NCBI GenBank assembly: GCA_022823605.1 | Contig: JAJEHS010000002.1 | Coordinates: 62,001 to 126,000, forward strand | DNA length: 64,000 nucleotides | Direction of reading: 5' to 3' | Source: Paracoccaceae bacterium | GTDB taxonomy: Bacteria; Pseudomonadota; Alphaproteobacteria; Rhodobacterales; Rhodobacteraceae | In this document: in pieces, positions 4,140-39,069 of the stretch | Layout of the letters: every line of letters starts with the position of its first letter | Position numbering within the stretch: position 1 is the stretch's first letter | The notes under the pieces: model-generated | Told to the model about the DNA's origin: nothing | Database searches by the model: none | Seen by the model: only the letters and a program-made list of their open reading frames with translations | Program-made: the position numbers and the translations under genes

Positions 4140-6474
<2,335 letters not shown>

Positions 6475-6498
6475 GACGATTAATACCTAGTTTCGTTC

Positions 6499-8037
6499 TC
6501 AGGAAAAATTGGCGGAGTAGGACCCAATGGCCTCTTTGATCTTGTCTTCCAACTCACCCTCAACCTTGCGGTCATTGGCAGTTATGTCCTCAAGGAGATC
6601 CTTGCAATTGGCCCTGAGGTGATTAATCAAACCCCGTTCAAATCGAACCACATCACCAATGTCAATATTATCAAGGAACCCGCCTGTCCCAGAGTAAATT
6701 ACGCAGACAATTTCGGCATTGGTCAATGGTGAATACTGCGCCTGCTTCATTAACTCGGTCAGTCTTGCTCCTCTGTTCAGCAACCTTTGGGTAGCGGCAT
6801 CCAAATCCGACCCGAACTGGGCAAAAGCAGCCATTTCACGATACTGGGCAAGTTCCAGCTTAACCGTACCAGCAACTGATTTCATTGCCTTGGTCTGTGC
6901 TGCCGAACCAACCCTGGAAACACTCAAACCGGTATTAACTGCAGGTCTGATACCTTGATAAAACAATTCTGTTTCAAGAAAGATCTGTCCATCGGTAATT
7001 GAAATCACATTAGTTGGAATGTAGGCTGACAGGTCACCGGCCTGGGTTTCAATAATCGGCAAGGCAGTCAATGATCCAGCCTTGAAATCCGGATTCAATT
7101 TGGCTGCCCGTTCCAAAAGCCTTGAATGGAGATAAAAGACGTCTCCTGGATAAGCTTCCCTTCCAGGAGGTCTCCTCAGGAGTAGAGACATCTGACGATA
7201 AGCAACAGCCTGTTTGGAAAGATCATCATAGATAATCAGCGCGTGCTTTCCATTATCCCTGAAGTATTCGGCCATGGCAGTAGCTGAATACGGGGCAAGA
7301 AACTGCATCGGAGCCGGGTCGGATGCTGTTGCTGCCACGATGATTGAATACCGCAGGGCATCATTTTCCTCCAGTTTCTTCACCAGTTGGGCTACGGTGG
7401 ATCTTTTTTGTCCCACGGCCACATAAATGCAGTACAGTTTTTTGGACTCATCATCACCTGCGGCATCGTTGTATGATTTCTGATTCAAAATGGTATCCAG
7501 AACCAATGCCGTTTTGCCTGTCTGGCGATCGCCGATGATCAATTCCCGTTGACCTCGACCAATTGGAATCATAGCATCCACTGATTTCAATCCGGTTGCC
7601 ATGGGTTCATGGACAGACCTTCTCGGAATAATGCCCGGGGCCTTTACATCTGCCACGGATCGCAAGCTGGTTTCAATCGGCCCCCTGTTGTCAATGGGAT
7701 TGCCCAGAGCATCCACAACCCGACCCAGAAGTTCTTCACCTACCGGTACATCAACAATGGCTTCCGTTCTTTTTACGAGGTCACCCTCCTTGATGTCACG
7801 GTCATCACCAAAAATGACAATACCGACGTTATCGACCTCAAGGTTAAGTGCCATCCCCCTGATTCCTCCTGGGAATTCAACCATTTCACCAGCCTGAATA
7901 TTATCAAGCCCGAAAACTCTGGCGATACCATCACCAACACTTAAAACCCGGCCAACTTCGGCTACTTCGGCTTCCTGGCCAAAATTCTTGATCTGGTCCT
8001 TCAGAATTGCTGAAATTTCAGAAGCTTGGATACTCAT
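6499..8037 (-). CDS. atpA: F1Fo ATP synthase alpha subunit
   Basis: 512-residue non-catalytic nucleotide-binding subunit of F1. Walker A GDRQTGKT is at residues 169-176, the [14 protein letters not shown] segment follows, and the arginine-finger region appears as [14 protein letters not shown]. Its ATG directly follows the atpH stop (GAGTAAATG), with AGAGG inside the end of atpH, so the two are translationally coupled. Length and sequence are normal for alphaproteobacteria. Confidence 0.97.
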
Positions 8038-12894: not shown

Positions 12895-13077
12895 TTCAGC
12901 AGCTTTTTATTTCCAGTGGCTGCAGGTTAATTGTAGATTAATCGGGTTAATTCTTTTTGGGGTTCATCATCACCAATAATCGAGAAGATTGGAAAGACAT
13001 TCTATTAACTGCTATGAACAAGCACTGCCCTAAGGTGATTGCTCGGTTGGGCATGGTTCAAAATCTTCAGGATCAAA

Positions 13078-13572
13078 TCAGAAAAAGAGTACAATCAGGG
13101 CAATACAAATCAATCCGCCCAAAAGGAAACATACTGAAGATACAATACCAACAAATGTCGACCAATCAGCTACTCGAAAGGATCTTTGGTCTACGGAAAA
13201 TAACACTTGTGATCGATCCAGTTGACCTTCGACAAACATGCTCAAACCGGTTTCATTGCCATGGGCTTCCAGTATAGTAACCACTGTTACCAGCAGCATC
13301 GTTAGTGCAGCAGATAATGTTCCGATTGCGAAGACCAATAAGGCAGACAAGGACAGATAGTGGTAAAGGGGCGTTTCAGCAACCGCTATTGTCGAAGAAC
13401 TCATAAAGCCTATAATCAATGCAGCCCCACCGGCATTGCCCAATAATAATATCCTGACCGTCTCCGCAACCATGCGAAACATGATTCCACGACGCCGGGC
13501 TACAACCTTGTAAACCTCTCGCAACCATTCTTCACCGGTTTCCTCCCTGGTAAAGTCATCCAGCTTTTTCAT
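13078..13572 (-). CDS. Small three-helix membrane protein of unknown function, last gene of the permease/SPFH operon
   Basis: 164 residues, not recognised. A basic, charged N-terminus (MKKLDDFTREETGEEWL...) is followed by hydrophobic segments at roughly 40-60, 70-105 and 138-163. The last one runs to the C-terminus, which ends in LIVLFF. Between the second and third segments is a hydrophilic loop (EAHGNETGLSMFVEGQLDRSQ). It lies 22 bases after the binding-protein gene on the same strand, so it is probably co-transcribed. An open frame on the opposite strand overlaps it, but the hydrophobic pattern favours this strand. Confidence 0.65.
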   Translation of the reverse strand: MKKLDDFTREETGEEWLREVYKVVARRRGIMFRMVAETVRILLLGNAGGAALIIGFMSSSTIAVAETPLYHYLSLSALLVFAIGTLSAALTMLLVTVVTILEAHGNETGLSMFVEGQLDRSQVLFSVDQRSFRVADWSTFVGIVSSVCFLLGGLICIALIVLFF

Positions 13573-13594
13573 AGGCTAACTTTCACTTGCCTCT

Positions 13595-14830
13595 CTATTC
13601 TACAATATTGGTCAATCTTATGTAATCGCTTCCAGTGTTGGAACCTTCTTTGAAGTCCAATACCCATCCATCAATTTCTATTTTGCCAGGTGACAACGCA
13701 ACCTCCATGAAGTGATTTCTGGTCAAGTTCCCCTCCATTCGTTCTAGCATTTCAATGACATACCTTCCCAAAATATACCCTTCAAGTGTCACTTCATTGG
13801 CCGAAAACTTAAAGGATGGATATTTTTCAAAAAATTTTGCCAGATCCGGGTTTTTCAATGCACGGTTCAAGCTGTTTGTTATCGGATATGTGGAATCGAG
13901 TGGATCAGGAACCACTTCTGTAATATAAATATTCTCGTTGGGAAAGTTCAGTCTGGATTTTAATTCATCAGAATTCACGAAGGAAAGATTGGCTATGCTG
14001 TAATCATGTGCAAGTGATGTGGAAAGATTGATAATTTCTGAATTTGTGGCATAGGTTCCAATAATAAAAATTGCATCCAAATCCACCTTTTTGAAGGTAA
14101 AAAGCCCTGCATGTACTGCATGTGAGTTTCTGGCAAAGCTTGCTCTCGCCAAAATGGGGAGGTTGAAACGATCCAATACATGTTTCAAATCCTCGTAGAC
14201 TGACTGTCCAAAAGCATCTTCCTGATAAATGATACCAAACCTGGAGAAACCGAGATCATGAATGAAATGATCAACCATTACACGAACCTCATCCCGGTAG
14301 GAAGACCTGAGGTTAACGACATTTGAGGCATAGTACAAATCATGTAAAAAATTGGCTCCGGTCAAGGGTCCCACATATGGAATATCAGCATCACGAAGTA
14401 TTGGCACGATACGTCTTGCAGTAGGTGTTCCAACACCACCAATTACAACAAACACGTCATTTTCCTCAACGATTTTTTCAGCATTCCTTAAGGCCAATTC
14501 TGATTCATAGGCATCATCAAGTTGCATTAATTCCAGTTTCCTGCCCATGATGCCGCCGTTTTGATTTTGTTCCTCAAAGGCAGCTAGAATTCCCAAGCTG
14601 TAGTTTAAACCCAGGATTTGATTTTCCCCTGTCAAGGCAGCACTTTGACCAAATACAATCCTGTCATCGTGGATGCCGGGATAAGCAAACGCACCAATAG
14701 GGAAAAGCAGTACAGAAACCATCACAATCATTGATTTCGTTGGATCCAACCCCACAAAATTATCCAGCCAAAATTTAAGCCTGGAATCATGTAATAATGC
14801 TAATTTCATGACGTCATTCACTGCTTTCAT
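13595..14830 (-). CDS. Type I periplasmic binding protein (LivJ/Peripla_BP_6 family), orphan
   Basis: 411 residues. A hydrophobic signal or anchor (IVMVSVLLFPIGAFA, about 35-50) is preceded by an unusually long hydrophilic N-terminus. The type I ligand-binding fold follows: IVFGQSAALTG, ...NQNGGIMGRKLELMQLDDAYE, then VFVVIGGVGTPTARRIVPIL. These motifs are typical of branched-chain amino acid or amide receptors. No permease or ATPase genes of such a transporter are nearby. The start overlaps the HflK-like gene by 17 bases; GTG 14821 and ATG 14809 are alternatives and would shorten the N-terminus. A sensory or ligand-presenting role within this operon is inference. Confidence 0.82.
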   Translation of the reverse strand: MKAVNDVMKLALLHDSRLKFWLDNFVGLDPTKSMIVMVSVLLFPIGAFAYPGIHDDRIVFGQSAALTGENQILGLNYSLGILAAFEEQNQNGGIMGRKLELMQLDDAYESELALRNAEKIVEENDVFVVIGGVGTPTARRIVPILRDADIPYVGPLTGANFLHDLYYASNVVNLRSSYRDEVRVMVDHFIHDLGFSRFGIIYQEDAFGQSVYEDLKHVLDRFNLPILARASFARNSHAVHAGLFTFKKVDLDAIFIIGTYATNSEIINLSTSLAHDYSIANLSFVNSDELKSRLNFPNENIYITEVVPDPLDSTYPITNSLNRALKNPDLAKFFEKYPSFKFSANEVTLEGYILGRYVIEMLERMEGNLTRNHFMEVALSPGKIEIDGWVLDFKEGSNTGSDYIRLTNIVE

Positions 14831-16154
14831 TTGGTTGTTCAGAAACAGTTTGAGCTATAGCGGTTGAAGAGGCACCTTCATTCACATCACCCGATTCCAA
14901 CTTATCGATCATTGGCTTTCCAGCAGGGGATTGTTCCTCAGCCCTAACGCCATCACCATGAGGAAAGATCAATGGGGTATCAAAAATCAGGGACCTGATA
15001 TTGGCAATACTCATGTGATCGCGTTCTGACTGATAATTATGGAATCTGCTACTAATGAGATTTTTATCGCTGTCCAACGTTGAGAATGAATCAGGCGAAC
15101 TGGGTATTACTGTCGAATATAGGGGTCTCGCCAGATTTTCACTCGTATCAGCAGTTGAAGCTTTTTTCTGACCAACCCCCAGTCCAAGGGGAGGAATTCG
15201 ACTAGCTCCATCAATCAGGTTAATGGCAATGCTGGAATCGTCATTCGGATTGGCCGCTGCCAATTTTGCCACATCGAAAATGGTTCTCATCCGATCCCAA
15301 TATCTAGTAATTGCTACCTGATAAGGTTCCCTACGATATTCTACCAGCAAATCTTCAAACGCGACTGCATTGGCCTCAGCCTGCTCCACTCGCATTCTGG
15401 CCTTTGCCGTAGCATCTAGAATTATGGCTTCGGCTTGCCCACGGGAATGAGCCACCAATCTGTCATATTTTTGTTGGGCTTCACTAACTACCCTGATACG
15501 GTCAGTCACCGCATTGCTGACATCACGAAAAGCGGGTATGGCTTCTTCAATCGGTCGGATATCGACTATTGTTAGAGACAACAATTCCAAACCAATATCA
15601 ATGGGCTCCATGTATTCAATGGCTTCCTGAAACAGCTTTTGTTCGATAATGTTTCTGTTGCTTGTCAGAATGAGATCAATAAAATTATTACCAAAATATT
15701 CTACAAGCCCTTCCCTGATTATCAATTTAAGAATTGAAACCGGGGTTGTAGTTGAGAACAAAAAGTTTTTCAAATTGTCGATTTTATATTGAAACATTAT
15801 ATCGACTTCGAAAAGGTTGGTATCCCCGGATAAGATGGAAAAATTTACTTTTCCCTCCTCAATACTGGCAATCCGGCCTCGTGTAATTCTTTTGACAGGG
15901 TGTATGTTGACCTCATCAATGAATGGTATTCGATAATGAATTCCGGGATTGACTTCAGCATTTATCAATCGGCCAAAACGGGTAAGTACACCTTGCTCCT
16001 CTTTCTTTACAGTATATAGACCGCTTAACACAAACAAAGTGAATATTATGACTATCAGACCCCATATCATGCGGGTCGGACCAATTCTGGCGCCTAAATC
16101 AAAAACCTCATAGATTATTCTGGTACTACGGGGTATTTGCGGTGATTCATTCAT
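14814..16154 (-). CDS. HflK-like SPFH-domain membrane protein
   Basis: 446 residues. One transmembrane helix (MIWGLIVIIFTLFVLSG) precedes an SPFH/band-7 domain beginning KKEEQGVLTRFGR and PGIHYRIPFIDEV, with GDTNLFEVDIMFQYKID, close to HflK. The helical stalk (AQQKYDRLVAHSRGQAEAI...) follows. About 110 C-terminal residues are low-complexity and Ser/Asp/Glu-rich, with no recognised domain. In Escherichia coli HflK pairs with HflC to form a cage that regulates FtsH; here the gene is downstream of an HflC-like gene but also of a permease fusion. A TTG at 16169 could also serve as start. This is a paralogue-like locus, not the usual hfq-hflX-hflKC cluster. Confidence 0.85.
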   Translation of the reverse strand: MNESPQIPRSTRIIYEVFDLGARIGPTRMIWGLIVIIFTLFVLSGLYTVKKEEQGVLTRFGRLINAEVNPGIHYRIPFIDEVNIHPVKRITRGRIASIEEGKVNFSILSGDTNLFEVDIMFQYKIDNLKNFLFSTTTPVSILKLIIREGLVEYFGNNFIDLILTSNRNIIEQKLFQEAIEYMEPIDIGLELLSLTIVDIRPIEEAIPAFRDVSNAVTDRIRVVSEAQQKYDRLVAHSRGQAEAIILDATAKARMRVEQAEANAVAFEDLLVEYRREPYQVAITRYWDRMRTIFDVAKLAAANPNDDSSIAINLIDGASRIPPLGLGVGQKKASTADTSENLARPLYSTVIPSSPDSFSTLDSDKNLISSRFHNYQSERDHMSIANIRSLIFDTPLIFPHGDGVRAEEQSPAGKPMIDKLESGDVNEGASSTAIAQTVSEQPNESSE

Positions 16155-16169
16155 TGACTTTATCCACAA

Positions 16170-17063
16170 TCATTGGGGAATTTCATTGCTGTCAAGAAAT
16201 TTGAACAATTCATTTTCTGTGGGCAAAATCAAAGTCGTTTGCTCATCGATGATCAAATCATAACTGTCCAGGGCACGAATAAACTTGTAGAATTCTGGGT
16301 CCTTGCTGTATGCCTTGCCCAATTCGGCCATGGCTGTCGCTTCTGCTTTGCCCAATATTCTGGTGGCTTCAGCATGTGCGTCACCCACAATTTTCTCATG
16401 CTCACTTACAGCAAGAGCTTCGATACGAATGGCTGCCTCTTCACCCTCGCTTCGATATCTGGCGGCCAATCTGGCTCGTTCCGAAATCATCCTCTGGATT
16501 ACACTTGCTCTGTTTTCTGGGGGCAAGGTATATTCAACAATCCCGGCCTGCAGTAACTCAATGCCATAATTTTTAACCGTTATGGGTGCAATCCGATCAT
16601 AAATCTCCTTGGTGGTTCTTTGAAGATCCCCATGTAACAAACCGAGACTAATGAAATTTTCCCGTGACTTGTTGCTAACCACGATACCAATGGTGGAAAA
16701 ATATAGATCTGCCAACCTCTCTTCAGCACTTTGTTTTGTACGGACCGCTTCAATAAAAAGCACTGGATCCGAAATACGCCAGAATAAATATCCATCAACA
16801 AGGATGTTTTGTTGGTCATTTGTGATTAATTCAACCGGCATTCCCGTCAAGGTTTGTGTACGAAGATCTACCTTGTAGACTTTGGAAATTGGGGCCGGCC
16901 ACTTAAAGTGTAAACCTGGTTCCCTTAATGGCAGTTGTATCTTGCCAAAAGTGGTTAACACTCCTTTTTGAGTTTCATGGATTGTAAATACACAACTGTA
17001 AATGATTGTGCCAACCGCTACCAGAGCAATCGTTGCATATATCCATTTTCGTGCTAAACTCAT
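16170..17063 (-). CDS. HflC-like SPFH-domain membrane protein
   Basis: 297 residues with an N-terminal membrane anchor (about 7-25) and an SPFH domain: FTIHETQKGVLTTFGKI, EPGLHFKWPAPISKV, then the DGYLFWRISDP strand typical of HflC. The C-terminal helices (AARYRSEGEEAAIRIEA, HAEATRILGKAEA) are the repeat-like coiled stalk of SPFH proteins. Length matches HflC. It overlaps the upstream permease-SPFH gene by 4 bases (ATGA) and abuts the HflK-like gene. The order HflC before HflK is the reverse of the usual hflKC operon. Confidence 0.87.
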   Translation of the reverse strand: MSLARKWIYATIALVAVGTIIYSCVFTIHETQKGVLTTFGKIQLPLREPGLHFKWPAPISKVYKVDLRTQTLTGMPVELITNDQQNILVDGYLFWRISDPVLFIEAVRTKQSAEERLADLYFSTIGIVVSNKSRENFISLGLLHGDLQRTTKEIYDRIAPITVKNYGIELLQAGIVEYTLPPENRASVIQRMISERARLAARYRSEGEEAAIRIEALAVSEHEKIVGDAHAEATRILGKAEATAMAELGKAYSKDPEFYKFIRALDSYDLIIDEQTTLILPTENELFKFLDSNEIPQ

Positions 17064-19381
17064 TGTTGATGCCCATCCCCCGAATGTGATTCACCAGTAT
17101 TTGAAAGTTGTGAATTGTTTTTCCAGATTACGATATTATTCAAGCTTTCCTCATCAGGTACCAAAATTTTAGACCTTCCAGCCAAAGCTGTTTCCAGTTT
17201 TTCCCGCCACAACATGTTCTGGAGTACTTCAGGAGCCGAATTGACAGATTCAGCAATTTCAACAATTGCATCCGCTTCAGCTTCTGAAACTGCTACAGTC
17301 CTGTAAGATCTCCCTTCGGCTTGCTTAATTTCATAAAATGAATTGCCATGTGCCAGAGGGGTTAGGTATACCAAAAACCGCTGGGCAGTTGCAATTAACC
17401 GTTCCTTGTCCTCTTGTGCGCTTGAAACCTCCCTAAAAGCAAACATTGTTTCATCAATTGGTTGAATACTAAACAGATTTGCCTTAACCAGTTCGATACT
17501 TCCGAGAGTTTGATTAAGCTCAGCGGGATATTCGTTTCTCAAATGTTCAGAAACATATTGCTCCAGTTCGATACGGTGAATATTGAGCAAGGTTTCCAAA
17601 CCATGGCCTGAAACAAATTTTCTTACGCTTTCTTCGGCAATGTTGGTAATTACACCTACTGGATCGTTCACCTTGTAGTGATATACATAAGGATCTACCA
17701 CACGATACTGTATCTCCAAATTCATTTTTATCAGATTGAGATCACCTGCCAAAAACTCCATGGGCAATTCTGACTTTATTGATTTGACTTCTCTGACAGG
17801 CCATTTGTCCACTTTAACGAATGGTACTGGTGCTAAATAATGTAGCCCAGGTTGCAAATCTCTCCATTGAATCTTACCGAATAGTTTGCCATAACCGACA
17901 CTTTGCGGTGGAATTGCCGTGAACCCTGAGGCGAGATAGAGAACAACAATAATTCCACCCAAGGTGATACCTATTGGAGTGGAATATGAAAATATTCCCC
18001 TAAAACCCCTTCCACGAGTAATTCTGTTCCAACCACTCCCCCAAAATAAGGTTATGTGGTCAAGATTCTGCATCATATCCTGATAACCAGATTTGAGGGC
18101 ACCCGCCCTAAATCTCCAGATTACGATTAACATCAGTACAATTGCACTACCCCATTGCAGTAATGCAATCGGGGTAGAATCTGATGATTGGAGATTTACA
18201 GTCAATGAAAAACCAAAATAAATGATCAGGAGATCGACCGCTATTGCTATCAAGACGGTAACAGCAATAACTATACCAACATAAATAGTGGTAAATCTTG
18301 CTCCAAACTGGCTTAAGATTATCGCTATGGTTCCTGTATTGGTAGCTGGTCCTGTCATCAGGAAAACCAAGGCTGCCCCCGGGCTAAAGCCTTTTGCCAC
18401 AAGTGCTGCCGCGATCGGTGTACTTGCTGATGCACAAATATAAAGTGGTACTGCAAACAAAACCATGACCGGATAAGCCAACCACTGTACATATTCCCGA
18501 GAGGCAAGGTCGGAAGGAATGGCAAGATATAACAGCCCTCCAATCAGCAGCCCTACCAGCAAGGCAAATAATATGTCATCCGCAACTTCAACAAACCCAT
18601 AATGAAATATGTGTTTTGTTACCTTGCCAAAGGTAAGTCCGTTTATAACCTTAGGTTCATGGATGGGTTTCTCTGCTTTTGGTTCACTCTCACCCACATC
18701 AACAATGTCGGTGTTACGGTAGAATTTTGGTTTTAACCAGAAAAGCAGTTTCAATCTTGGGAATGAAATTCCCCTAATACCATCAATAAGGAGAATCCAA
18801 AAGTTCCTGAAACCTACATAACAATCGTCATCAATCAGGTTTTTATGACCGTGATCGTGACCACAATCATCGTGGTGATGATGACCGTGATGATGGTGAT
18901 CGTGATGATGTTCCGAGTGTGATTGATCTGATTTTGGATCATGTTTGTCATCTCGGATAAGCCCAATACAGAAAATACCCGCAACAACAGCAGTTATAAA
19001 ACTTATTATCGGCCTGGCAATAGCAGCGATCCAACCAAAAAAAGCATTTGTTACAAGTATGGAATCCACACCGGTTTCAGGAGCAGTAATCAGAAATGAC
19101 ATACATGCTGACCTGGATGCCCCTTTTTTTCGCATTTCCCTCACAACCGGTACTACCGAGCAACTGCACAAAGGTACTGGTACACCAAAGGCCGCACTTG
19201 TAGATACAGATGTTAAACTGTCATCCTTTAACCATTTGAGGATTGCTTCCCTGGAAACAAAAACATGAATCAAACCTGCCAGAAACAACCCAAGCAACAG
19301 CATTGGTGACAGCAACAGGAATGAGGCCAGCATAAAATCTGCAAATCTGGCAACAAAATCAACCAAGGGAACCTTACTCAA
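17060..19381 (-). CDS. ArsP/SO_0444-type permease fused to an SPFH (HflK-like) domain
   Basis: 773 residues, a composite protein. Residues 1-395 match the predicted permease family that includes ArsP and the SO_0444 Cu/Zn exporter: two half-domains carry the hallmark motifs PLCSCSVVPV (71-80) and YICASASTP (314-322), separated by a cytosolic-type loop with a His/Asp cluster (154-179). Extra helices follow (about 404-421 and 468-486). Residues ~487-660 are an SPFH domain (QSVGYGKLFGKI, LQPGLHYLAPVPF, FLAGDLNLIKMNLEIQYRV), then a helical stalk to about 740. The start is TTG 19381, with AGGATGG upstream. First gene of a five-gene operon. Metal efflux is family knowledge; the fusion's purpose is unknown. 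Confidence 0.85.
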   Translation of the reverse strand: MSKVPLVDFVARFADFMLASFLLLSPMLLLGLFLAGLIHVFVSREAILKWLKDDSLTSVSTSAAFGVPVPLCSCSVVPVVREMRKKGASRSACMSFLITAPETGVDSILVTNAFFGWIAAIARPIISFITAVVAGIFCIGLIRDDKHDPKSDQSHSEHHHDHHHHGHHHHDDCGHDHGHKNLIDDDCYVGFRNFWILLIDGIRGISFPRLKLLFWLKPKFYRNTDIVDVGESEPKAEKPIHEPKVINGLTFGKVTKHIFHYGFVEVADDILFALLVGLLIGGLLYLAIPSDLASREYVQWLAYPVMVLFAVPLYICASASTPIAAALVAKGFSPGAALVFLMTGPATNTGTIAIILSQFGARFTTIYVGIVIAVTVLIAIAVDLLIIYFGFSLTVNLQSSDSTPIALLQWGSAIVLMLIVIWRFRAGALKSGYQDMMQNLDHITLFWGSGWNRITRGRGFRGIFSYSTPIGITLGGIIVVLYLASGFTAIPPQSVGYGKLFGKIQWRDLQPGLHYLAPVPFVKVDKWPVREVKSIKSELPMEFLAGDLNLIKMNLEIQYRVVDPYVYHYKVNDPVGVITNIAEESVRKFVSGHGLETLLNIHRIELEQYVSEHLRNEYPAELNQTLGSIELVKANLFSIQPIDETMFAFREVSSAQEDKERLIATAQRFLVYLTPLAHGNSFYEIKQAEGRSYRTVAVSEAEADAIVEIAESVNSAPEVLQNMLWREKLETALAGRSKILVPDEESLNNIVIWKNNSQLSNTGESHSGDGHQQ
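18845..18922 (-). repeat. His-codon microsatellite encoding a His/Asp-rich loop
   Basis: CAT/GAT-type triplets encode HSEHHHDHHHHGHHHHDD and then CGHDHGH (residues 154-179 of the permease fusion). Such loops bind Zn, Cu, Co or Ni in metal transporters. The triplet repeats may vary in length by slippage. Confidence 0.8.
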
Positions 19382-19780
19382 TCAAACCATCCTCATCAAA
19401 ATTTTTTCCTGTTTGGAATGAAAAATCCAATAATTTTAATTTTCGTATATCACATAAACATAATAATGTTTAATCATTCTCCCTCATCATTTCTTTATGA
19501 GGACTTTTTTCCTATACTGTGACGATGAATTACAGGAATCGAAATATTTCTTACCTGAAAATTTATCTTCCTCAAATGCTGATCAATTTCAACTGGTTTA
19601 ATGAATATTTCAAGGGAATTGATTCTGATTTGTAATTGTCATACGTCAAAAACGACCATCATTATTTATCAAATTTTACTTTTATTTCTGCTTTACTTTT
19701 CATGGCCTTCACAGAAAACTTTTTGCAAATTCATTGCCCGCAATCTGACAAATATGGGAGTAAAATTTTGACGCGATAGC
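19382..19780. other. Intergenic, promoter region of the permease/SPFH operon
   Basis: About 400 AT-rich bases between the permease fusion gene and the phasin terminator. No open frame of credible composition and no RNA gene were seen. The promoter of the five-gene operon must lie here or further upstream, but no clear -35/-10 pair or metal-responsive operator was recognised. Confidence 0.5.
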
Positions 19781-22593: not shown

Positions 22594-25353
22594 TCAGGGC
22601 TCAGTCAGTTTAAGTTCAATCCTGCGGTTTTTGGCTTTTCCTTCATTGGTTTCGTTTGAAGCAACAGGTTGGTGTTCACCGAAACCGGCAGCGGCTAATT
22701 TTTCTGGTTTGATACTTTCATTACTAATCAAAAATTGTACGACAGAACGTGCTCTTGCCTGACTCAATTCCCAATTATCCTCAAATTCACTACCAGAAAT
22801 CATTTGTTGGTTGTCAGTATGACCATCCACCCTTAATACCCAACTTATATCGTCAGGAATTTTGAGATCATTTATGATATCTGCAACATTAAGTATTTCT
22901 TCCTTCCCTTTTTCAGACAGCTCAGCCCTACCAGTTGCAAATAAAACTTCACTTGAAAAAACAAACCTGTCACCAACAATTTCGACACCATCGGCCCTTT
23001 CAACAAGATCTCTAAGATCTGCAAGGAACTGTGATTGATATTTGGATAATCCCAACTCTTCCTGATCATCCGGCAGGTCCTGTCCTGTTTCTGCCAATCT
23101 ATTTTCTGTATCTTGCAAATTTGCTTCCAGTTCTGCTATCCGCTGTTCCTGCTCCTTCAAGTCTTTGACGAGTTCCAATACCTTGTTTGCCAAGGAGGCA
23201 TTAAGAAGTCTTCCCAAACTGGAATCATCAGTACGGTTATTCTCAAAATATGCATTTACTTGCTCCTCAGCAGATAAATATTGCTCAAGAAATTCAGACA
23301 ACTTCTCTGCAACCTGATTGATTCCTTGAACTGTATCCAGTTCCTTTAAATCTTCGACTTCTATCAATCCCCCCAACTGATCGAATATCATTGTTTTGAA
23401 TTCTTCAATGCTTTTCTTTGCTTGCTCAAGTTCCTTTTGGGTCAAATCCAATTGTTTTGAACGCTCTTCAGCTTCACTTTCCAATTTACTTTGGTTAGCA
23501 ATATTGCCTTCAAGACTAGACTCCAATACTTGATTATTCTCAGCTAGATTTTCTTTCTCCTCCGTAAGCGTTTCAATATCGGATTGAAGATTTGCAATCT
23601 GTTCATTTAATTCTTTCCTTTGCAATAACAGATCCCGTTTTTCCTTTTCCAATTCACCAATCAAAGCAAGTCTTTCCAGATCCTTGCTTTTCAAATCCCT
23701 TAAATCATTTCTTAAACTTTCAATAGTCTCGTTAAGTTTCGAAATACTTTCCTCAAGATTGCTCTTTTCTGATTCAAGACTCGTAATCAGGGTATTGTTT
23801 TCCTGGATTTCAAAATTGTTTTTGTTTACTTCTTCAAGAAGTTCCTTTCGTTCACCTTCCAACTCCTCTCTAACAAGATTGTTCCTTGTTATTTCTCCCT
23901 CCAGTCTGACTCTGGTATCAATCAATGAGTTGTTTTCCTCTCGCAAACGATTTATTTCATCATCCTTTACACCAATGAGAGCACTCTTCACCTGAATCTC
24001 ACTTTGAAGACTTATGGCCTCAGTCTGTAATTCGGAAATAAGGTTGTTCTTGGTTTCAATGTCCTGATTAAGGCCACTTAGTTCTGATTTCAGTGTGGAT
24101 ATATCCGACAGGATTTCCTCGGACTTTTCATTATTTTGGTCCAATTCTCCTCGCAGAACTAGCAATTCACCTGTCAAATTGTCTCTTTGTTTTATTAATT
24201 CCGAAATTTCGAGTTCAAGATTGGCAATGGTTTCCCTAAGTATCCCTTGCTGAGTCGTCAATTCTGAAATCAACCGTTCTTTTTCATCAATTGCAGCTTG
24301 ATTTCCGGAATACTCCATACCCAAATTGTTCAAATCAGTTTGTAAACCATCGATGGTTTCCTGAAGATTCGAAATTAAAGATCTAAGCCGATCCCTTTCT
24401 TCATTGATAACAAACAGTTCCGCTTCCAGTTTTTCCTGCTCATCCTGATAGGTATCAACAACAGATTTGATCTCATCCAGTTCCTGGAGCAATTCTTCAA
24501 TTCTACTGGCCAGGGAAAGGTTGTTTGTCTCTCTTTCTGCTAGACTTTCCTCAAGCTTGCCCCTTTCCTTCTGGAGAGTTCTTATTTCTGCAATGAATTC
24601 CTCTATCCTGGAATTCAACTCCACTATCTGAGCATCTCTGTTTTCCAAATCTGTAGCAAGTTGATCCTTCAGGGATTGAACCTCATCCAGATCTGAAAGC
24701 AATTCCTCTATCCTGCTGGCCAGGGAAAGGTTGGTAGTCTCTCTTTCAGTTAGACTTTCCTCAAGCTTGCTCCTCTCCTGCTGGAGAGTTCTTACCTCCA
24801 AAATGATTTCCTCTATACGGCTATTGAGTATGACGATCAGCGTATCCCTGCTTTCCAAATCTCCACCGAGTCTTTCCATTTCGGAACGGGCTTCTACAAG
24901 CTCGATCAGCAGTTCTTCAATTCTACTTGCCAAGGAAAGGTTTGCTTCATCTCGTTTGCTCAGACTCTCCTCCAGTTTGACTCTTTCCTGCTGGAGATTT
25001 CTTACCTCTGCAATGATATCATCAATACGGTCATTGAGGATTACGATCAGGGCATCCCTATTCTCCAAGTCCGTACTGAGTTGATCCTTCTCAGATTGAA
25101 GTTCTTCAAGTTCAAGCAACAATTCTCCAATTCTGGAATCCAGCAGAAGAATTCTAGTGTCTTGCTCTTCGATTACTTCGGACAGGTCTGTCTTTTCACC
25201 CTCAAGGTTCTTGATTTCGGCAGAAAAAACATACTGGATCAGTACAAATATTGTAATGATGAAAACCAGGACCAGCAGCAAGGCTGTCAAAATATCGACA
25301 AAACCCGTCCATATATTACTGTTACTTCGAGTTACAGGCTTTCTTCTTAACAA
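22594..25353 (-). CDS. Giant coiled-coil OmpA/MotB-type peptidoglycan-binding membrane protein
   Basis: 919 residues. A short cytosolic tail and one transmembrane helix (about 21-44, beginning VDILTALLLVLVFIITIF as in MotB/ZorB/TolR-type stator proteins) precede a periplasmic coiled coil of about 700 residues and a C-terminal OmpA domain (about 780-919) with RVDGHTDNQQM, ELSQARARSVVQFL and AAGFGEHQPVASN...RIELKL, the peptidoglycan-binding motifs. Residues 99-308 are three tandem 70-residue repeats. The TM sequence suggests a partner ExbB/MotA-type channel, and one lies at 36794-38011. The start is TTG 25353 with GGAAAA upstream. Most family members are shorter. Confidence 0.87.
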   Translation of the reverse strand: MLRRKPVTRSNSNIWTGFVDILTALLLVLVFIITIFVLIQYVFSAEIKNLEGEKTDLSEVIEEQDTRILLLDSRIGELLLELEELQSEKDQLSTDLENRDALIVILNDRIDDIIAEVRNLQQERVKLEESLSKRDEANLSLASRIEELLIELVEARSEMERLGGDLESRDTLIVILNSRIEEIILEVRTLQQERSKLEESLTERETTNLSLASRIEELLSDLDEVQSLKDQLATDLENRDAQIVELNSRIEEFIAEIRTLQKERGKLEESLAERETNNLSLASRIEELLQELDEIKSVVDTYQDEQEKLEAELFVINEERDRLRSLISNLQETIDGLQTDLNNLGMEYSGNQAAIDEKERLISELTTQQGILRETIANLELEISELIKQRDNLTGELLVLRGELDQNNEKSEEILSDISTLKSELSGLNQDIETKNNLISELQTEAISLQSEIQVKSALIGVKDDEINRLREENNSLIDTRVRLEGEITRNNLVREELEGERKELLEEVNKNNFEIQENNTLITSLESEKSNLEESISKLNETIESLRNDLRDLKSKDLERLALIGELEKEKRDLLLQRKELNEQIANLQSDIETLTEEKENLAENNQVLESSLEGNIANQSKLESEAEERSKQLDLTQKELEQAKKSIEEFKTMIFDQLGGLIEVEDLKELDTVQGINQVAEKLSEFLEQYLSAEEQVNAYFENNRTDDSSLGRLLNASLANKVLELVKDLKEQEQRIAELEANLQDTENRLAETGQDLPDDQEELGLSKYQSQFLADLRDLVERADGVEIVGDRFVFSSEVLFATGRAELSEKGKEEILNVADIINDLKIPDDISWVLRVDGHTDNQQMISGSEFEDNWELSQARARSVVQFLISNESIKPEKLAAAGFGEHQPVASNETNEGKAKNRRIELKLTEP
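24430..25059 (-). repeat. Three tandem 210-bp repeats encoding 70-residue coiled-coil units
   Basis: Residues 99-168, 169-238 and 239-308 of the OmpA-type protein each follow the pattern RD-x-LIVILN-xRIEE...LQQER-x-KLEESL...NLSLASRIEELL. The DNA is also repeated with a 210-base period; for example, related blocks begin at 24503, 24713 and 24923. Seventy residues are ten heptads, so unequal crossing-over keeps the coil in register. Confidence 0.9.
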
Positions 25354-38127: not shown

Positions 38128-39069
38128 ATGGATGCTGTTTTGTATCAGGGGTATATTGGATTAGTAATAGTAATTGGGCTATTCATTCTGATTTTCTTCT
38201 TTATGATGGTAAAGTCAATACCACAAGGGGAAAACTGGACAATCGAACGATTTGGCCGATTTGCTAGGACTCAGCAACCCGGCCTAAGACTCATCATACC
38301 ATTAATCGAGCGTGTTGGGAAGAAAGTCAACATGATGGAAAATGTCCTGAATGTAGGTGCCCAGGAAGTTATTACTCGTGACAATGCCACGATTTCGGCA
38401 GATGCCATTGCCTTCTATCAGATCATCGTTGCTGAAAAGGCCTCCTATGAAGTCAGGGATCTGGTCAATTCCCTGGAAAACCTGATTCAAACCAATATCA
38501 GATCTGTGATTGGATCAATGGATCTTGACGAATCTCTTTCCAACCGGGACCAGATAAACTCCCGGTTGCTGATGGTTATTGACGAAGCTGTCAAACCTTG
38601 GGGCGTCAAGGTAACCAGAATTGAAATCAAGGACCTGACCCCTCCTCCCAACATATCGGAGGCCATGGCCCGACAAATGAAAGCGGAACGGGATAAACGT
38701 GCCGAAGTATTACAGGCCGAAGGTGAAAAACAGTCTGCCATATTGCGGGCTGAAGGTCTGAGAGAAGCACAGATCAGGGAAGCTGAAGGCCGGAAGGAGG
38801 CTGCCTTTCTGGATGCAGAGGCACGCGAAAGAGCTGCCGAAGCTGAAGCCAAAGCAACTGAAATGGTTTCGAAAGCCATTGCCGACGGTGATATTCAGGC
38901 AGTGAACTATTTTGTTGCCCAGAAATACACCCAAGCACTGGAATCAGTCGCTTCATCACCAAACTCGAAAACCATCATGATGCCCCTTGAAGCAAGTAAC
39001 CTGCTTGGTTCTGTTGCCGGTATCGTCGAGCTAGTCAAGGGAGATTCAAAAAGGCCTGATGATGCCTGA
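38128..39069 (+). CDS. qmcA: Stomatin/QmcA-type SPFH protein
   Basis: 313 residues. An N-terminal membrane helix (about 9-28) precedes a band-7 domain starting KSIPQGENWTIERFGRFART with QPGLRLIIPLIERVG, and ending in a long Ala/Glu-rich helix with the AEGEKQSAILRAEGLREAQ repeat of paraslipins. SPFH proteins of this class form membrane microdomains and pair with NfeD. Here nfeD follows by 17 bases. AAAGAGG precedes the ATG. Confidence 0.93.
   Translation: MDAVLYQGYIGLVIVIGLFILIFFFMMVKSIPQGENWTIERFGRFARTQQPGLRLIIPLIERVGKKVNMMENVLNVGAQEVITRDNATISADAIAFYQIIVAEKASYEVRDLVNSLENLIQTNIRSVIGSMDLDESLSNRDQINSRLLMVIDEAVKPWGVKVTRIEIKDLTPPPNISEAMARQMKAERDKRAEVLQAEGEKQSAILRAEGLREAQIREAEGRKEAAFLDAEARERAAEAEAKATEMVSKAIADGDIQAVNYFVAQKYTQALESVASSPNSKTIMMPLEASNLLGSVAGIVELVKGDSKRPDDA

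Follow-up and report, generated by a model that had tools for sequence, protein, structure and literature searches.

The bacterial SPFH proteins HflK and HflC form a dome in which the two subunits strictly alternate, and this HflKC complex binds FtsH. Contacts between stomatin and transporters are known in eukaryotes, and how SPFH proteins of bacteria affect transporters is an open question. Here, we describe five genes in a 64,000-nucleotide stretch of DNA from a Paracoccaceae bacterium (GCA_022823605.1, contig JAJEHS010000002.1, positions 62,001 to 126,000; hereafter the window). In this operon, a metal permease and a putative ring subunit are one polypeptide, which is followed by an HflC-like and a plain HflK-like SPFH protein, a periplasmic binding protein and a small membrane protein. 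The operon is metal-related and belongs to a wider family that is apparently undescribed. We propose, with a probability of about 55%, that it encodes a caged complex in the membrane that handles zinc, or a divalent metal like it, and acts mainly together with uptake.

Our search of open-licence papers found no description of a transporter-SPFH fusion, and the nearest described system is the cluster PA2434-PA2439 of Pseudomonas aeruginosa, which encodes the zinc- and copper-importing P-type ATPase HmtA and three HflK/HflC proteins (PMC4542158). According to the accessible part of that report, the cluster genes listed are induced 5.6- to 14.4-fold in a znuA mutant, with values of 9- to 14-fold for the three HflK/C proteins in its table, and a weak Zur site is present. 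Proteomic data point in the same direction, with one of seven p-values below 0.05 (PMC11761036, accessible part). By their locus numbers, the three SPFH proteins of the cluster match paFlo5-7 (PMC9431628), the joint deletion of which is stated to leave growth in LB unchanged (PMC13086221). Compared by description and not by sequence, the cluster resembles the window in combining a metal transporter with three SPFH proteins, and the numbering of its loci hints at an HflK gene followed by those of HflC and the third SPFH protein. It differs in the transporter family, and the accessible text describes neither a fusion nor a binding or small membrane protein; conversely, there is no P-type ATPase among the five genes of the window operon. 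The permease itself has a described relative in SO_0444, which is required for growth of Shewanella under zinc or copper stress and lies in an operon with a ZntR-like regulator (PMC3219624, accessible part); a further relative is induced by cadmium and copper (PMC10092412, accessible part).

A permease-SPFH fusion in a conserved operon

The original prediction, made from the letters and their open reading frames, had described five minus-strand genes separated by a 4-nucleotide overlap, a direct abutment, a 17-nucleotide overlap and a 22-nucleotide gap, and the arrangement is exactly that. Likewise, the Pfam and NCBIfam scores agree with its reading of the products as a permease joined to an SPFH domain, an HflC-like and an HflK-like protein, a type I binding protein and a small membrane protein (Table 1). 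In the first gene product, the permease (NCBIfam match at residues 21-421) is divided by a histidine-rich loop at about residues 144-250 and is followed by a positively charged linker, an extra transmembrane segment, an HflK-like SPFH domain (Band_7, residues 501-667) and a tail. The permease half scores 330.3 bits against a cut-off of 300 for the SO_0444 family of copper/zinc efflux transporters (NF033936), the described members of which are, to our knowledge, unfused. Across 19 aligned fusions, the loop contains 8-20 histidines and a CSCS motif is invariant. The ratio of nonsynonymous to synonymous substitution (dN/dS) is about 0.08 in comparison with a 97%-identical relative (L007), and purifying selection acts on the fusion.

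The operon proteins resemble those of the HflK-HflC complex. The SPFH domain of the fusion together with its coiled tail can be aligned over its full length to HflK of E. coli in the solved entry 7vhp (E 1.1e-24), and the HflC-like protein passes the cut-off of the HflC model TIGR01932; the cut-off of the HflK model TIGR01933 is missed by both the plain HflK-like protein and the fusion (124.9 bits). In contrast to that complex, the window encodes three subunits rather than two, the first of them bears a permease, and the operon HflC stands apart from ordinary HflC. The topology indicated by hydropathy and charge would put the SPFH domain and the histidine-rich loop on the periplasmic side, a placement with which a positively charged loop behind the CSCS motif does not agree.

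The set is conserved as a unit. An exact-peptide scan of a collection of genome contigs, which by its own description covers 84,980 species, yielded 25 loci: 20 with fusions, two with unfused permeases (L026, L027) and three with distant permeases. Since the scan relies on exact peptides, divergent forms are under-counted. On contigs that are long enough, the fusion is followed by HflC in all 20 loci, HflK in 18 of 18 (the copy in L017 contains an inner stop), and the binding protein and the small protein in 17 of 17 each, always in this order, and in 14 of the 20 loci fusion and HflC overlap by 4 nucleotides. A chance neighbourhood of the five genes is ruled out by the fixed order in 20 loci. 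The idea of one conserved system, which demanded that homologues of the fusion do not mostly occur without these neighbours, thus stands for this form. We refer to this five-gene form as type A; its loci are labelled Rhodobacteraceae, Gammaproteobacteria, Pseudomonadales, Gemmatimonadota, Latescibacterota, Nitrospinota, Binatia, a deltaproteobacterium and two unplaced bacteria. For the alignments and trees, some loci were set aside (L008, L025 and the unfused L026 and L027 from alignment A1; L008, L026 and L027 from the fusion tree; L023 from alignment A3).

The closest solved relative of the binding protein is 4kv7 (E 6.2e-61). Unlike in LIV/HAAT ABC transporters, partner genes for ABC permeases and ATPases are absent among the five operon genes, and the scores of the binding protein are far below the NCBIfam cut-offs. 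Because the tblastn matches to its relatives begin inside the reading frame, at residues 16-52 and mostly at residue 31 or later, its true start may lie downstream of 14830, and the 17-nucleotide overlap could result from the annotation. An uncertain TTG start opens the HflK-like reading frame as well, and its real start may be an inner ATG. The small protein gives a structure model with a predicted local distance difference test (pLDDT) score of 83, and no fold in the PDB matches it at E<=0.001. The window copy has no Pfam family, and 18 members gave weak, scattered matches only (best E 0.028). Profile searches at E<=0.001 found it in one of 398 Pseudomonadota genomes, our own, and a profile detected it in five of 18 genomes of the phylum of G460, among them the two that carry loci L018 and L020 (G460 and G461).

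Two side observations concern the permease family. In the phylum of genome G459, ten of the 70 fusion-query matches listed have one or two in-frame TGA codons, which possibly encode selenocysteine; SO_0444 is mentioned in a review of selenoproteomes. On an Aureibacter plasmid (L149, 4944-7650), an unfused SO_0444 gene is followed by the gene of a GTP-binding protein, possibly a metallochaperone.

Table 1. Features of the operon, its surroundings and its relatives. Coordinates refer to the window unless another record is named.
Feature	Coordinates	Strand	Remarks
Permease-SPFH fusion, 773 aa	17060..19381	-	ArsP_1 161.7 bits and Band_7 48.8 bits in a single open reading frame
HflC-like SPFH protein, 297 aa	16170..17063	-	TIGR01932 159.1 bits, cut-off 134.4
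HflK-like SPFH protein, 451 aa	14814..16169	-	Band_7; TIGR01933 152.2 bits, just below cut-off 159.4
Type I periplasmic binding protein, LivJ-like	13595..14830	-	Peripla_BP_6 115.1 bits
Small membrane protein, 164 aa	13078..13572	-	Three long helices by prediction; no Pfam or NCBIfam family
Palindrome TAAACATTATTATGTTTA (minus strand)	19455..19472		73 nucleotides upstream of the fusion start
Segment missing in near relative G008: operon and flanking intergenic DNA	12943..19779		68 bp in G008
Type B operon	L057 9208-14501; L058 10067-16501		Genomes of L016 and L021
CDF-HflK-like fusion, Aquibium oceanicum plasmid	NZ_CP018172.1 (L150) 5412-6959		Cation_efflux 89 bits and Band_7; annotated as HflK only
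CDF-type fusion in G556	L154 5343-7070		Alignment to the Aquibium fusion spans residues 1-502 (E 2e-49); HflC and HflK downstream

Zinc genes around type A loci and the direction of transport

The surroundings of the type A loci link the operon to zinc. A zinc importer gene, either ZIP or Znu and never both in one stretch, lies near 18 of the 20 fusion loci, among which near copies reduce the number of independent cases. ZIP genes are found in ten loci, in each of them downstream of the small protein on the same strand at a distance of 12-400 nucleotides, and Pfam confirms all ten. Znu genes occur in eight loci, and the ZnuA Pfam family is matched by nine of nine proteins; in six loci, ZnuA precedes the fusion on its strand, 12 nucleotides away in L019 and 295-450 nucleotides elsewhere, and in L016 and L021 the Znu genes are part of, or lie behind, a neighbouring type B set (see below). 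The two loci that lack an importer are L007, on a contig of 4.7 kb, and L008, the contig of which stops in HflC and contains CDF and CzcA genes. Four of the Znu loci (L017, L018, L020, L024) also have a Zur-like reading frame and AT-rich Zur-like sites, and there the set follows the zur-like reading frame and znuA. The Zur-like copy of L018 scores 55 bits with the FUR Pfam family and has Zur as its best NCBIfam match (120.1 bits, below the cut-off of 167). The own genome of the window (2.6 Mb) lacks ZIP and holds a single ZnuA, which shares a contig with the operon at a distance of about 50 kb, so the probability that importers adjoin the operon by chance is low.

We infer the following mechanism. 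The three SPFH proteins, i. e. an HflK-like one with an N-terminal metal permease, an HflC-like one and a plain HflK-like one, would assemble into a ring or dome. Because of the homology to HflK of the HflKC dome, this ring is expected to face the periplasm, with the permease enclosed inside it. Metal held by the histidine-rich loops may be handled in this confined space, and the scaffold would organise or regulate the transporter. The strict alternation of HflK and HflC would let the fused and the plain HflK share the HflK places of the ring, and this could explain why the set contains two HflK types. The complex would work with the zinc importer that is usually encoded next door, ZIP or ZnuABC, and its part in zinc homeostasis would most likely be in uptake. 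The small protein may be an assembly partner; for the binding protein, we can only guess at a periplasmic sensor or a binder of an amino-acid-type co-ligand. The original prediction had proposed a ring of three SPFH subunits around a metal exporter. Two of its elements hold, since the three SPFH proteins go together across loci and the system is metal-related; export, in contrast, is not the best-supported direction because of the importers and because the hmtA cluster is induced by zinc depletion.

The export direction is the foremost alternative and is less probable. In this scenario, the permease would export zinc, copper or cadmium out of the cytoplasm, the cage would pass the metal on or shield the periplasm, Czc-type pumps would be partners, and the importers would represent the other half of a homeostasis island. 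Export is favoured by the SO_0444 precedent, i. e. its role under zinc and copper stress, its ZntR-like regulator and the induction of its relative by cadmium and copper, and by the Czc neighbours: in L009 and L010, CzcBA immediately precedes the fusion in the same orientation, at distances of 138 and 75 nucleotides. The alternative fusions described below carry CDF transporters, a family mostly known for efflux. Uptake, on the other hand, is favoured by the importers, since efflux genes lie near fewer loci, by the position of the set behind zur-like and znuA genes, and by the parallel with the zinc-depletion response of hmtA.

Several findings weigh against our proposal as a whole. First, the described SO_0444 family members are exporters, as far as the accessible parts of the two reports state (PMC3219624, PMC10092412). 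CzcA-type efflux genes lie near seven of the 20 loci and CDF genes near two. Second, the window itself carries none of the expected partners: searches of its 64 kb at E<=1e-8 for Zur, ZIP, CzcA, CzcB, ZnuA, ZnuB, ZnuC, CDF and SCO were without a match, and it contains no convincing Zur box, with 30% of shuffled sequences scoring equally high against a Zur consensus. In types C and D of the fusion, the neighbours tested by hidden Markov models (HMMs), which are part of all neighbours, include no zinc importer. Third, the structure model of the fusion (pLDDT 49) is too poor for use. Finally, the solved relatives of the binding protein are named as amino-acid-type binders and not as metal binders. 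Such a protein, with its place in the LivJ/AmiC fold group, might even lead the system, which would then take up or sense an organic ligand, an amino acid or amide, with the metal being incidental. We regard this as very improbable: types B, C and D and the CDF forms keep the core without the binding protein, and metal genes flank most type A loci.

A palindrome upstream of the fusion (Table 1) differs by one base in the relative L007 and is absent from the znuA stretch of the own genome when up to three mismatches are allowed; it is a possible operator.

The three-gene core in other forms

The five genes were expected to occur together. This is true of type A, and the other forms share only a core of three, in which a transporter-HflK fusion is followed by HflC and HflK. 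This core recurs in the divergent permease types B, C and D and in forms with a CDF transporter, all without the binding and small proteins of type A. Type B, with fusions of 698 and 697 aa, shares its island with the type A operon in the genomes of L016 and L021 and has the order SCO1/SenC protein, fusion, HflC, HflK, ZnuA-family binding protein (251.6 bits) and ATPase. Types C and D come from two more genomes, where fusion, HflC and HflK each overlap by 4 nucleotides and tblastn finds neither the binding nor the small protein; the neighbours tested by HMM belong to the RND pump, MFS, FtsX/MacB-like, DUF3299, PPIase and LtrA families. Permease fusions occur in three of 297 genomes of the phylum of G459 (at most three candidates scored per genome) and in one, our own, of 398 Pseudomonadota genomes (at most two scored). 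Among the latter, 23 match the permease part only at E<=1e-40, and the own genome alone matches both parts.

The CDF forms keep the three-gene order and likewise bear a metal-transporter domain on their first SPFH protein, here a CDF domain in place of the SO_0444 permease. One of them is encoded on a plasmid, typed as conjugative, of the cultured marine bacterium Aquibium oceanicum, which thus offers an organism for experimental work on such fusions; downstream are HflC, HflK, PPIase, a heavy-metal P-type ATPase, PCu(A)C and SCO. Among 72,556 plasmid records, only its own covers 80% of this fusion. The second CDF set is found in genome G556, which holds a type D set as well.

An extra hflK-hflC pair beside a cation transporter is not a general rule on plasmids: the seven hflK-hflC regions inspected comprise the CDF fusion, one pair with NhaA and one with a cation:proton antiporter behind it, and four pairs without an adjoining transporter. 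The two pairs with a separate transporter are from Vibrio (L146, 5821-9208, nhaA directly behind) and Methylophaga (L153, 4967-8151, antiporter directly behind).

The relationships of the forms were assessed from the SPFH domains. In a tree of 52 rows, eight fused domains (four of type A, one each of B, C and D, and the Aquibium CDF fusion) form a single clade (support 96/96), and eight operon HflC proteins form another one (96/91), apart from ordinary HflC. A further finding that weighs against our proposal comes from the CDF set of G556: when it is added, the single clade of fused domains breaks and two changes are needed, since its fused domain sits on a long branch (2.26) outside the others. 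The support for the operon HflC then is 76/75 (nine rows) and that for the operon HflK 91/79, and another tree, with the HflC of L134 (the G556 CDF set) among the operon HflC, gives 65. Thus, one old trio may have exchanged its transporter, or two separate fusions may have occurred at the same place. Under both scenarios, metal transporters of two unrelated families are attached to the same subunit within an identical order of three genes, and this makes the idea that SPFH cages organise transporters directly testable. It may also give a reason for the presence of HflK/HflC genes in the zinc response of P. aeruginosa.

The affinity to HflK and HflC raises the question of whether the three proteins are simply HflKC paralogues that control the proteolysis of metal transporters by FtsH or another protease, with the fusion serving as a substrate tether and the ring having no role in transport. 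The binding of FtsH by HflKC would fit such a function. We consider it improbable: no protease is among the identified recurrent neighbours, and the window's operon HflC, apart from ordinary HflC in the trees just described, does not group with the ordinary copies from either its own genome or the carriers. The own genome has an ordinary hflK-hflC pair on contig C5, and seven of the eight type A carriers checked retain an HflC close to the ordinary one, so the operon HflC need not serve FtsH.

A broader reading would see all these sets as a new class of machine, a periplasmic chamber of three HflK/HflC-type subunits, the wall of which bears covalently attached, exchangeable metal transporters. 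Either swaps or repeated fusions at one and the same subunit would have brought in the transporter module, which would be an SO_0444 permease, a CDF protein or, perhaps as a separate protein, the P-type ATPase importer of P. aeruginosa. The second, plain HflK would serve to dilute the bulky fused subunit within the ring, and the form with the binding protein would have passed from phylum to phylum in sponge symbionts as a means of scavenging zinc. That all these parts hold jointly is rather doubtful.

Outside the operon, the window encodes a further SPFH protein on the plus strand (38128-39069; 313 aa, Band_7 133 bits) and a 919-aa protein (22594-25353) with a C-terminal OmpA domain and a weak match to ATG16 of the coiled-coil type.

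Distribution, proposed lateral gain and probable sponge hosts

Among alphaproteobacteria, the set is not typical, with the full fusion in two of 61 genomes searched, our own and G001 of the same genus. Seven of the nine genus members searched, several of them incomplete genomes, lack it. The operon site is bordered by clpA and a phasin-like gene, both with their 3' ends towards it. The near relative G008, with flanks that are 93.8% and 90.9% identical, has 68 bp in place of the 6,837 bp of the window that contain the operon; a loss in G008 rather than a gain in the window may also explain this difference, although most genus members searched lack the fusion.

The operon HflC of the window is 61-66% identical to those of seven carriers (L009, L011, L016, L018, L020, L021 and L028), whereas the HflC of these genomes that are nearest to the own ordinary HflC are only 35-39% identical to it. 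We therefore infer a lateral spread of the operon, plausibly among sponge symbionts; a stronger constraint on the operon HflC could contribute to its higher identity. In the fusion tree, phyla mostly cluster, and transfers of type A between phyla are neither proven nor resolved. Plasmids are not the vehicle as far as the records go: neither permease fusion is covered to 80% by any of the 72,556 plasmid records (phages were not searched).

The carriers are apparently sponge symbionts. A table in the accessible part of PMC5649159 lists L020 and the unfused L027 as bins from Aplysina aerophoba, and the label prefixes of nine further fusion loci fit sponges named in the accessible part of PMC8163846, which suggests the same origin for them; ten of the 20 are untraced. 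The bacterium of the window is a probable sponge symbiont as well. The system suggests that zinc is contested within sponges. In two genomes of the same genus (G002 and G006), the contigs L122 and L123 end just past recD2 on the operon side, possibly as assembly breaks at a variable site.

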